NCBI GenBank assembly: GCA_029573725.1
Contig: JAKQDQ010000093.1
Span: forward strand, 1-64,000
Source: Verrucomicrobiota bacterium
GTDB lineage: Bacteria; Verrucomicrobiota; Verrucomicrobiia; Limisphaerales; JADLHS01
DNA length: 64,000 bases
Direction of reading: 5' to 3'
Below, in pieces: positions 12,298-58,879 of the stretch (the stretch's first letter is position 1; each line of letters begins with the position of its first letter). A program made the position numbers and the translations under genes. The notes beneath the pieces were generated by a model. That model was not told the origin of the DNA and did not search any database. It saw nothing but the letters and a program-made list of their open reading frames with translations.

Positions 12298-12323
12298 CGC
12301 TCCTGAGAAACCAGCCGTGCAAG

Positions 12324-12600
12324 TCATTGGTTGGGAACGATTCGGCAGTTGAGGGACGCGGCCATGTTTTCGAGGCGTTGGAGCTTCTGGCGGCGCATTT
12401 TGACTTCCTCCTGGGCGAAGATTACCGGGTGGAACGGCTGTTGGGATTTGAGCCGGTGTCAGAGGATGCGCGCCAATTGATGCGCCATGGCGGTGATGGC
12501 CTTGGGTACGCGCAGGCGGGCCTTCCCTCTCCGGTAGAGATCGCCAAAGTAGTTCTTGGTCTGTCGGGACAGATCCCCAGCCCTTGCGAGCACCAAGAGT
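12324..12600 (-). pseudogene. Decayed IS110-type transposase, C-terminal remnant
   Basis: The minus strand encodes NYFGDLYRRGKARLRVPKA, then ITAMAHQLARIL, an in-frame TGA, and then FAQEEVKMRRQKLQRLENMA before a final stop at 12324. This resembles the end of IS110/IS116-type transposases (A-x-A-H-K-L-A-R-I-x-Y motif followed by a charged helix). The internal stop and missing N-terminal part show it is dead. The family assignment is from motif memory only. Confidence 0.6.
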
Positions 12601-12863
12601 TTGTTCAGTGCGCCTTTGCGGCATTGCACCTTGGCGCCTTTGCGTTTCTTTTTTTATCGCCAAGACGGCAAGACATTCAGAACAGCCACAAAGAGGCACA
12701 AAAGCCACAAGCACTTTTCTGTTGAACCATTTCCTGCCCAGCACAAAGCTCGATGAAATGAGTGGTTCGAAGGGTGTGCCGCGCAGAGAGGATTGGGCGC
12801 ACGCTTGAGGCTGGCTTCGACTTCCGGGTTCGGACGTGCAGTAATGCCGGGAATCGAAGACTT
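12601..12863. other. Intergenic, no gene recognised
   Basis: This stretch lies between the transposase remnant and the first palindrome and has T-rich and A-rich patches. Open frames here lack any recognisable domain. Confidence 0.4.
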
Positions 12864-12922
12864 GGCAGGGGAATGTTCGGCAAGGGAATGAGTTCCATTC
12901 CCCTGACAATCATTCCTCTGCC
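12864..12922. repeat. Palindromic GGGGAATG repeat element
   Basis: The element opens with GGCAGGGGAATG and closes with CATTCCTCTGCC, its near-perfect complement. An inner pair, AGGGAATG and CATTCCC, surrounds a central AGTTC. The whole can fold into a nested hairpin of about 59 bases. It looks like a dispersed intergenic repeat; the rest of the genome is needed to confirm that. Confidence 0.65.
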
Positions 12923-12956
12923 GATCCGGTGGTTTGGTGAGCGGCTCTTGAAACAC

Positions 12957-13020
12957 CTCGCCTCACAGAGCGGTGATAAATCCACCGCACTCCAGACGCT
13001 GCGCGATCGGCCGGGCGCGA
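12957..13020. repeat. Second short palindromic repeat
   Basis: GCGGTGATAAATCCACCGC near 12970-12988 is a perfect 6-bp stem with a 7-base loop, followed by CACTCCAGACGCTGCGCG. I recall the motif type (a GATAAATC loop in a GC stem) as an intergenic repeat of this group. Its presence next to the previous palindrome suggests a repeat-rich spacer. Confidence 0.45.
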
Positions 13021-13126
13021 ATCCGTGCTGCCGCTCCCCAGTCAAGGCGATGGGTCCGGTGTTTGCAGTGGCACCGGAATACTCTCCCCAGTAAACCGCG
13101 GACGTCACGGGTTCAGCGACTCACTT

Positions 13127-13221
13127 CAACGGCCGTGTATCCCGCAGCCCGCCATGCCCCGTCCCAAATAAACCGGCGCTTGCTCGCGGCGAACTGCGGG
13201 ATACACTGCTTGAAGTTAGGC
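13127..13221 (+). other. attC-like recombination site
   Basis: GTGTATCCCGCAG (13135-13147) and CTGCGGGATACAC (13195-13207) are perfect 13-base inverted repeats. On the 5' side lies CTTCAAC and on the 3' side TTGAAGTTAGGCC, which contains a core GTTAGGC fitting the GTTRRRY consensus of integron attC sites. The length (about 95 bases) and the position 17 bases before an AT-richer orphan gene also fit. The 5' core box matches RYYYAAC at only 6 of 7 positions, and no integrase gene is in the window. Confidence 0.45.
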
Positions 13222-13237
13222 CACTCGACACGCTCAG

Positions 13238-13837
13238 ATGAACAGCGCGCTTTCACTTTTGATTCAGGTCGGCGTCTTAGCAGGGCTGGTTACCACGTTC
13301 CTCGTTCCCTGTCTCATTGCAGACTATTGGTTCGGGCTTCGCCGTCCTTGGCCGATGCTTGTCGGCGTTGGCACGTTAGCCATGGCACTGTTCGCAGCAT
13401 ATCGTTGGCTGATTCGTTCACAACGCAAGGAGCGAGAGGTTTTGTCCAGCAGCCAGCATGAGGTGTTTGGTGAGGTGCGACGCCTTAGAGATCATTGGGA
13501 GGCTTCTTCCGCGCTTACACCGAGCGTGCCAAGTATTGAGATCTGGGGCGAGTCCACATCGCCATCTGATGCGCAAACATCTGCATTTGTAGCCATTCGA
13601 GAGCGTCATTCCGAGTTGGTTACTCGTGCAGTCGAGGCTGCCCGCACATCGTTTTCTTTTCTGGATTTCATCCTGTCTCCTCAAGACGTTCATTTGGACA
13701 GCATCTATTTGTCGGCGGATGGGGTTGGTTCATTCGACTTATGCTTTTCTGTTCCTGCCCATGAGCGGCAGTTGCCTTGGGGATTCACAGCGCAGTTTGT
13801 TGACTTCGCTGTAGATGAGATTTCTGACAATCATTGA
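13238..13837 (+). CDS. Hypothetical two-helix membrane protein, cassette-like
   Basis: A 199-residue protein with two N-terminal transmembrane segments (about 5-28 and 38-57: LLIQVGVLAGLVTTFLVPCL and MLVGVGTLAMALFAAYRWLI). A charged linker and a soluble C-terminal half of about 125 residues with no recognised domain follow. GC is visibly lower than in neighbouring genes and the codon choice differs, as in integron cassettes. An attC-like site lies just upstream. No second attC is clear after the stop. No function can be assigned. Confidence 0.65.
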   Translation: MNSALSLLIQVGVLAGLVTTFLVPCLIADYWFGLRRPWPMLVGVGTLAMALFAAYRWLIRSQRKEREVLSSSQHEVFGEVRRLRDHWEASSALTPSVPSIEIWGESTSPSDAQTSAFVAIRERHSELVTRAVEAARTSFSFLDFILSPQDVHLDSIYLSADGVGSFDLCFSVPAHERQLPWGFTAQFVDFAVDEISDNH

Positions 13838-14235
13838 GTGGCCTCCTAAGAAACAAGGATCAGATCTGAAGCCTGTTTTTATTGGGGATTTTGCTGGTCG
13901 TGTTTTGTGAGCGCGGCGTTGCTGTTAATACAAAAAGACCGGGCCTGGGTTTGCAAAAAATCGCACGCGGCTGAAGCAGCCAATCCAGTTGTGGCACCGG
14001 AGGCGGGCCGCAGGATCCAAACGCCAGTGATCCATCTCGTAATCGGGGTCGTGCCGCGTCCCTCAAGGTTCACGCCCGCCGCCAGTGACCGGGTCCGCTC
14101 CTGCGGGGCCAAGCTCCGGAACGGGTTCAACAGAACCCCAGTGGCAGGCCGGGGTACTTTGCCGACCACCGGCCATTCCTGACTTAAAACACAAGCGCTC
14201 CGAACACAAGCGACGCCCGAGGAAAGAAAAGTTTC
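13838..14235. other. Intergenic, no gene recognised
   Basis: About 400 bases between the cassette-like gene and the end of mazG. Open frames on both strands have no family resemblance. No second attC-like hairpin or clear terminator is seen. Confidence 0.45.
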
Positions 14236-22320: not shown

Positions 22321-22536
22321 GCGCTACCGCCTCTTTCCGTCGCGCCGCCTGACGCTTGGCGCCACCGGATGTGCGCCGGCCGGCGCGACGGACGGGTCTG
22401 TTTCGCCTGCCGCTCCCCGCCCCTTCGAATGGAACCACACACCAACCAGACCGGGGTTGTGATCAACCCTGTCCGACCGCGTCCTCCGACCGCGACGGGG
22501 CGGCCCGGCAAGCCAGCGCACGGACGGTGCTGCGGC

Positions 22537-57122: not shown

Positions 57123-58879
57123 CCTCGCCTGAACCCGCCCAGGAAGTGGGCGATATTCTCCTGCAACAGGGACTGCTCAGCACCGCACAGTTGGAACAGG
57201 TGCGGCGGCGTCAACGCCGCTTGCGGCTGGCGCAGCACCGCGCGGTGGTGGATTTGAACTTCGTCTCCGAGGAACAGGCCTGGCGCGCGCTCGCCACGAT
57301 CAGCGGCCTGGAATTTGTGGCGGTCAACACCCTGAATCTGCCGCGCGCCACCTTGGAACTTGTTCCGATCAAGTTCCTCTTCCATTATCACATGCTGCCA
57401 ATCGGGATCGAGGATGGCGTCATCACCCTGGCCTTCAGTGAGCCGCCCCACCAGATGGAGGCAGGCAACCTGCAGTTGCTCCTGAATCGCCGCTTCAAAA
57501 TCGTCCTCGCCACCCCCAGCGCCATCCACGCAGTCATCAAAAAACACTTCGGCCTGGGCGCGGCCGTCATTCAAAAATTGCGCGAGGAGCGCGGCGGCGG
57601 CGACCTGGACCGGGAGATCGTTTTTGACGTTCCGGAACGGGAGGAGGATTCCGCGCTCGATGCCACCATCTCCGCTTTCGTGGACCAAATCCTGCAGGAG
57701 GCGTTACGGTTGCAGGCCACGGACATTCACCTCGAACCCTACGCCCATGCCGTTCGCCTCCGCTATCGTCTGGATGGAATTTTGGAAACCGTGCCCGTTC
57801 CGCCGGACATGCGGCACCTGCACGCCGCCGTCGTTTCCCGCCTGAAAATCATGGCCGGCCTGAACATCGCCGAAAAGCGGCTGCCGCAGGATGGACGCAT
57901 CGCCATGAAAACCGGTTCGGAAGAATACGATCTGCGCGTGTCCATCATGCCCACCAAGCACGGGGAGGCGGTGGCGTTGCGCCTGCTTGGGCGGCAGCAG
58001 TTGTTCCTGGACCTGAACCAGCTCGGCATGGAGCCCGACCAGGAGGCCCTCTTTGCGCAACTCACCAAATTGCCGCAGGGGCTGGTGTTGCTGACCGGCC
58101 CCACCGGCAGCGGCAAGACCACCACCCTCTACACTGCGCTGGCCCAGGCCAACGATGAAGGCCGCAAGATCATCACCTTCGAGGACCCCATTGAATACCA
58201 GCTCGAAGGCGTGGTGCAAATCCAGGTGCGCGAACAGATCGGACTCAGCTTCGCCACCGGCCTGCGTTCGGTGCTGCGGCACGATCCCGATGTGGTGCTG
58301 ATCGGAGAAATCCGGGATCCCGAAACCGCCGAAATCGCCGTGCGCGCCGCCCAGACAGGCCATCTGGTTTTCTCCACCCTGCACACCAACAACAGCATCG
58401 GCGCCGTGACGCGCTTCCTGGAAATGCGCATCGAACCCTACCTGGTGTCCTCCTCCCTGGTGTGCAGCGTTTCCCAGCGCCTGGCCCGGCGCATCTGCCG
58501 GCACTGCTCCGAGCCGGACCGCCACCTTCCCCCGGAGCTCCGCGAGGAAATGGCCGCCGCGCTGAAAATCCCCGCAAGCGAGGTGCAGGCGTTCCGCGGT
58601 CGCGGCTGCGTGGAATGTCACCAAAAAGGCTACCGGGGACGCGTGGCGATCTATGAGATGTTCCTGCTCAATGAAACCCTGGCGGACCTGATCCAACCCG
58701 GCGTCAAGACCGGGGAGCTGCGGGCCGCCGCGCGCCGCTTCGGCTGGCGCTCCCTGCGGGAAATGGGCTGGCTCAAGGTGCAACGCGGCCTCATCCCCGT
58801 GGCCGAACAGGAACGTTGGACGCACTCCCTCAACCCGGGAGGCGCCCCCGGCTCACCTTCCCTGGTCCCGGGGGAATAA
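57119..58879 (+). CDS. Type II/IV secretion ATPase (GspE/PilB family)
   Basis: 586 residues. The N-terminal MshEN-type domain is about 10-140. The ATPase core has Walker A LLTGPTGSGKTTTLYTALAQ (near 326), Asp box ITFEDPIEYQLEGVVQIQV, Walker B VVLIGEIRDPETAEIAVRAA (near 391), and His box AQTGHLVFSTLHTNNS. The zinc-type cysteines are in RICRHCSE and GCVECHQKGYRGRVAIYEMF. It powers assembly of the pilus or pseudopilus. No PilC/GspF platform or pilin gene is in the window. Confidence 0.94.
   Translation: MTSPEPAQEVGDILLQQGLLSTAQLEQVRRRQRRLRLAQHRAVVDLNFVSEEQAWRALATISGLEFVAVNTLNLPRATLELVPIKFLFHYHMLPIGIEDGVITLAFSEPPHQMEAGNLQLLLNRRFKIVLATPSAIHAVIKKHFGLGAAVIQKLREERGGGDLDREIVFDVPEREEDSALDATISAFVDQILQEALRLQATDIHLEPYAHAVRLRYRLDGILETVPVPPDMRHLHAAVVSRLKIMAGLNIAEKRLPQDGRIAMKTGSEEYDLRVSIMPTKHGEAVALRLLGRQQLFLDLNQLGMEPDQEALFAQLTKLPQGLVLLTGPTGSGKTTTLYTALAQANDEGRKIITFEDPIEYQLEGVVQIQVREQIGLSFATGLRSVLRHDPDVVLIGEIRDPETAEIAVRAAQTGHLVFSTLHTNNSIGAVTRFLEMRIEPYLVSSSLVCSVSQRLARRICRHCSEPDRHLPPELREEMAAALKIPASEVQAFRGRGCVECHQKGYRGRVAIYEMFLLNETLADLIQPGVKTGELRAAARRFGWRSLREMGWLKVQRGLIPVAEQERWTHSLNPGGAPGSPSLVPGE

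Follow-up and report, generated by a model that had tools for sequence, protein, structure and literature searches.

Integron integrases cross over at G^TTRRRY, and the attC sites on which they act usually have spacers of 4–7 nt on both sides, as well as unpaired central bases. Cassettes also occur apart from an integrase, in clusters of attC sites without intI (CALIN). A review treats how such clusters arise as an open point and names as origins insertion at off-target sites, intI loss and rearrangement (PMC8618304). Mobile elements are tied to attC sites in IS1111-attC elements and group IIC-attC introns, which use other enzymes and insert into an attC, whereas the element described below seems to end in its own. 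Insertion sequences also lie inside cassettes, as with the IS3 and IS911 copies embedded in cassettes of a Vibrio integron (PMC11023631), but there the IS is cargo, while in the present case the attC-like site is formed by the end of the element itself. The same two genes, transposase and tyrosine recombinase, are paired in rhizobial members of the IS91 family (Y2 HUH), which have a left terminus GAACGAACCCGCTGCGCGGG close to the GTTGAACTAAACCGCTTCGCGG of the elements described here, but in which none of six copies has an attC-like tail.

The locus examined here lies in a 64,000-nt window, the whole stretch of DNA that was analysed, from a draft genome of the order Limisphaerales (4.28 Mb, 187 contigs). 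Its hairpin resembles an integron attC site in its R''-L''-loop-L'-R' layout, G^TTRRRY border, bottom-strand bias and cassette neighbours; unlike an attC, it recurs in conserved form across an order, is linked to the end of a transposon and has spacers of 1 and 5 nt. As in CALIN, the cassette stands apart from an integrase, but it follows a transposon-derived site, and the window holds one attC-like site where CALIN have two or more, so the locus is not filed among them. Judged from sequence comparison, the hairpin probably forms the attC-like 3′ terminus of an IS91-family copy that is non-autonomous, and the ORF at 13238–13837 the next integron-type cassette, joined at G^TTAGGC, with IntI most likely acting on the tail. 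A transposon with its own attC-like end would add a further route to integrase-less cassette clusters, and the arrangement in the window hints at a way in which gene arrays might start away from integrons. Among open-licence papers we recognised none on an IS91-type element ending in attC, which is weak evidence of novelty, and found none on a Limisphaerales member with an integron.

Anatomy of the hairpin and its cassette

The hairpin (13124–13221) ends in the GTTAGGC core reported in the preliminary description (Table 1). The inverted repeat said there to be long and perfect is present, with arms at 13132–13153 and 13188–13209 that are 86% complementary, but 'perfect' was slightly generous, as even the inner 16-nt arms carry a single mismatch. 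R' is an exact GTTRRRY and R'' differs from its consensus by one base. A first palindrome scan without gaps gave no result because the spacers are asymmetric. As single-stranded DNA, positions 13115–13225 fold with −27.1 kcal/mol (z −3.84) on the top strand and, more stably, with −32.3 kcal/mol (z −5.58) on the bottom strand; 0 of 200 dinucleotide shuffles match this stability on either strand. A search against Rfam gave no real match, and ARAGORN found no tRNA at the site.

Table 1. Features of the insertion between the BNR-repeat gene and mazG, in window coordinates
Feature	Position	Strand	Remark
Whole insertion between BNR-repeat gene and mazG	12298..14235	.	stop codons 1938 nt apart here, 19 nt in G010
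Repeat block 5′ of hairpin, part of non-autonomous remnant	12781..13117	+	about 89% like the copy on contig C73; no transposase match
Conserved TACTCTCCCCAGTA block	13080..13093	+	5′ of hairpin in most copies
Right inverted-repeat-like end GGGTTCAGCGACTCACTTCAAC	13109..13130	+	approximately the reverse complement of left terminus GTTGAACTAAACCGCTTCGCGG of complete copies, by eye
R''-like box CTTCAAC	13124..13130	+	GTTCAAC in most copies
L'' arm	13132..13147	+
L' arm	13194..13209	+
R' box GTTAGGC	13215..13221	+	copy-to-copy likeness ends about here
Cassette ORF, 199 aa	13238..13837	+	hydrophobic N-terminus; no known family
Tail common to window ORF and two other cassettes (C73, 181 nt; G001:C49, 312 nt)	13841..14152	+	77% alike; no attC recognised

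The ORF follows the core closely, its ATG lying 16 nt past GTTAGGC. Its low GC and lack of classification are both borne out: GC is 0.523 against 0.625 for the whole window, GC3 is 0.518 against 0.80–0.83 in two neighbour genes, and the protein falls into no accepted family of Pfam (two sub-threshold matches, E 0.1 and 0.44), NCBIfam, PADLOC or PHROGs. It is hydrophobic at about residues 1–32, with a weaker stretch from residue 41. No homologue was found in its own genome, and a pattern search of a collection of genome contigs gave 31 matches, 0 of them confirmed as homologues. Its designation as a cassette is supported by the tail that it has in common with two other cassettes to which it is unrelated; since one of these, at G001:C49, begins at GTTAGGC with no hairpin seen before it, such cassettes also occur without the element. 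A scan 3′ of the window ORF recognised no attC. Elsewhere in the window, on the minus strand, there is a lone attC-like match (58691–58821, score 18.4), probably due to chance.

The entire block between the BNR-repeat gene and mazG is read as an insertion on the strength of the near-adjacent flanking genes in another genus (G010), where loss is the less likely account. What remains at the locus is the right part of the element only, with an altered R'' box; no transposase remnant was found there and no transposase copy anywhere in the window genome. Intergenic repeat blocks at 12640–13010 recur on contigs C33, C73 and C178 of the same genome. A search of the window contig (C34) for integron integrase (TIGR02249) gave no match, in agreement with a cassette outside any integron, and in the genome as a whole intI is present only as two pieces, cut off at the end of C30 and the start of C36, one of them with a broken frame. 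The view of the locus as an integron-like cassette thus keeps its boundary at G^TTAGGC, its R'' and R' boxes and its low-GC ORF, but the hairpin would be the 3′ end of the upstream element and not the cassette's own attC. 'Secondary site' proved too weak a term for a structured site that recurs before cassette-like genes in many genomes.

A hairpin family at the ends of IS91-type elements

A second copy in the host genome, on C73, resembles the window between about −433 and +17 relative to the junction and precedes a gene different from the window ORF. Of 12 genomes in the family, 4 contained copies by DNA search, and a covariance model built from seven copies matched 24 of 320 genomes of the order. 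From 73 model matches 49 places were kept, leaving out 23 mirror-strand matches and one partial stem (window 22333–22395); some of the 49 score only 28–35 bits and may be chance or decayed. Recurrence on this scale indicates that the window hairpin is more than chance. A strict pattern scan of one genome per species (84,980 species) gave 25 matches, all labelled Verrucomicrobiota, one of them Akkermansia, except one labelled 'bacterium'; its pattern derives from the hairpin family itself and cannot reveal distant forms. When attC sites were sought with relaxed spacers, only 25 of the 49 places were returned, 23 scoring above 17; the window copy was missed because of its altered R'' box.

Covariation is strong in the 16-pair stem, where 71 cells across 34 sequences changed on both sides compared with 24.9 in shuffles (0/500). 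The L arms are therefore complementary and kept by covariation, and the boxes are those of an attC (RYYYAAC and GTTRRRY), R'' being mostly GTTCAAC. Five copies carry a variant R'', GTTCAAT, with a junction that begins with A, ATT in three of them (L157, L158 and L159 in G216, L164 in G284, L173 at G002:C961); no cassette was recognised behind these. In four others (L068, L160, L161, L162) loop, 3′ arm and GTTAGGC are retained and the 5′ arm is replaced.

Complete relatives show what the hairpin belongs to: an IS91-family element, of which it forms the 3′ end and which encodes a tyrosine recombinase and a Y2 transposase, the two genes overlapping by about 4 nt in G126. The transposase matches Y2_Tnp of Pfam (1.5e-50) and IS91 of NCBIfam (1.7e-107), and the Y2 HUH transposase with zinc domain that defines IS91 is thus found in complete relatives and is absent from the window copy and genome. 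Searches of 20 genomes gave 11 transposase loci (12 rows), of which all but G124:C115 were inspected downstream and one, G319:C169, runs off its contig. At six of the 11 the hairpin lies 100–900 nt downstream. Two more (G258:C39 and G002:C269) terminate in a site that is attC-like but unrelated in sequence, with spacers of 3 and 7 nt and scores of 24.9 and 22.8, where the null reached at most 20.4, while G004:C612 has no attC-like end above the null. The appearance of transposase genes 5′ of the hairpin led us to drop an earlier candidate, a fixed attI-like leader. Among the copies in G264 (L136–L140), mosaic repeats of varying order lie 5′ of the element, from −332 to −1800.

The left end of the complete element starts GTTGAAC, and its terminus GTTGAACTAAACCGCTTCGCGG is present with at most three mismatches in four leader copies. 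With a TTGAAC start and an attC-like end, both ends fit a cassette. The complete unit would accordingly be laid out as one, with a transposon for its cargo: TTGAAC (of the TTRRRY type), tyrosine recombinase, Y2 (HUH) transposase, then R''-L''-loop-L'-G. In the proposed mechanism an integron integrase, the most likely enzyme, would act in trans on the tail, recombining its bottom strand in folded form; attI and attC positions would thereby be open to the unit, and further cassettes could be added behind it. Docking sites would be scattered over the chromosome as the transposase makes copies.

Of 12 left ends, four lie at an attC or attI-like site. An attI-like flank is common to two of them, in G130 with a divergent integron integrase about 0.6 kb away, and the other two follow an attC; in one of these cases 87 of 103 columns agree with the preceding attC. 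No integron site was seen at seven of the 12, and one has too little flank. When the flanks of three complete copies were joined, no attC spanned the junction. This weakens plain insertion into an attC, an explanation partly revived by the left ends at attC sites.

Junctions, cassette arrays and the presumed recombining enzyme

Copies within one genome (seven in G264, four in G225, two in G220, three in G216) are about 88–100% alike 5′ of the junction, and this likeness ends at or just after GTT, between +1 and +17 from its G and mostly between +1 and +10. The bases after GTT vary among the G264 copies (AGGC, GGGT, CGGC, AGGT, GGGC, AGGG, AGCT), and the ORFs that follow near-identical copies are unrelated to each other. 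GTT forms the junction at 35 of the 49 places, GTTAGGC at 13; the full GTTRRRY is exact at 18 of the 35, where about two are expected by chance. The bottom strand has the greater stability in 30 of 35, though the related copies among these do not count as independent. The tetranucleotide GTTC or CTTG marks the origin end of IS91 elements; here the base after GTT is A, C or G, and GTTC is found at 5 of 35 junctions.

An ORF of at least 50 aa begins within 160 nt of the hairpin at 47 of 49 places, as a conserved 5′ regulatory hairpin or mobile promoter unconnected with recombination would lead one to expect. The control side gives 24 of 33, however, which makes the excess modest, and the downstream genes are unrelated, likeness ends near the IntI crossover base and attC arrays follow some copies. 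We regard a purely regulatory role as very improbable.

Such arrays lie on contig C83 of G264, where two hairpin copies each head cassettes with attCs at the ORF borders; the sites behind the first copy, bordering several ORFs, score 18.5–19.8 compared with 14.5–21.5 for known class 1 sites and 17.1 for the top of six shuffles. With the scorer set at 17.5, a cut-off that finds only three of six known class 1 sites (at 14 or above it finds all six, plus four false ones), 20 canonical attC sites lie within 4 kb downstream in 154 kb, at 13 of 49 places, against about three expected from a Markov null (nine in 462 kb), some sites being counted twice in overlapping stretches (L137, L142). None lies within that distance at the other 36 places, the window included. 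Upstream there are 12 in 135 kb, so that arrays are not confined to the downstream side. Similar Clp-N-like cassette genes, matched by eye, occur in the arrays of two genomes (L137 8688–9212 and L249 1681–2196).

Downstream arrays would also follow if the hairpin were a fixed docking site that never moves as a cassette, the element having been placed by ordinary transposition and IntI inserting cassettes behind it. The left flanks of the three complete copies, which hold no integron site in the junction test, agree with this, as do the different genes that the window and C73 carry between related left and right blocks. The left ends at attI-like or attC sites and the right block that also follows a third cassette without a hairpin argue the other way, and we think this account rather improbable.

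A different division of labour would have the element's own HUH transposase move it into the GTTRRRY of attC, attI or cassette starts, an effect comparable to that of IS1111-attC elements, with the hairpin serving as the transposon's origin end and not as an IntI substrate. The last base of R'' does match the first junction base in the manner of a guide (C-G 29, T-A 5; C-A 2, T-G 2, apart from 11 places without a readable R''), a pairing that fits IntI and transposase alike. Relatives elsewhere are ordinary IS91-type elements, and some left ends do sit at integron sites. But a hairpin with attC boxes and bottom-strand bias is missing from the rhizobial relatives, and the three joined flank pairs yield no attC; movement by the transposase seems to us the less likely. 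Because their borders are identical either way, a unit moved by IntI and one moved by the transposase look the same in sequence. For the docking itself the attC features and the attI position lead us to favour IntI with some confidence. Anatomy, spread, junctions, covariation and positions at attI-like and attC sites can be read from the DNA as it stands; the recombining enzyme and the continued working of the site we infer.

Beyond IntI acting on the tail, a larger picture can be offered tentatively, with a chance we put somewhat short of even: a hybrid mobile element of two single-stranded DNA hairpin systems, in which an HUH transposon ends in a working attC, the transposase spreads docking sites and any IntI in the cell loads them with cassettes. 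Such an element would unite two machineries, each working on folded single-stranded DNA, and would, if real, give rise directly to integrase-less cassette arrays. At one further place (L067, G002:C652), three tyrosine-recombinase-like stretches lie in a row on the opposite strand, 3′ of the hairpin.
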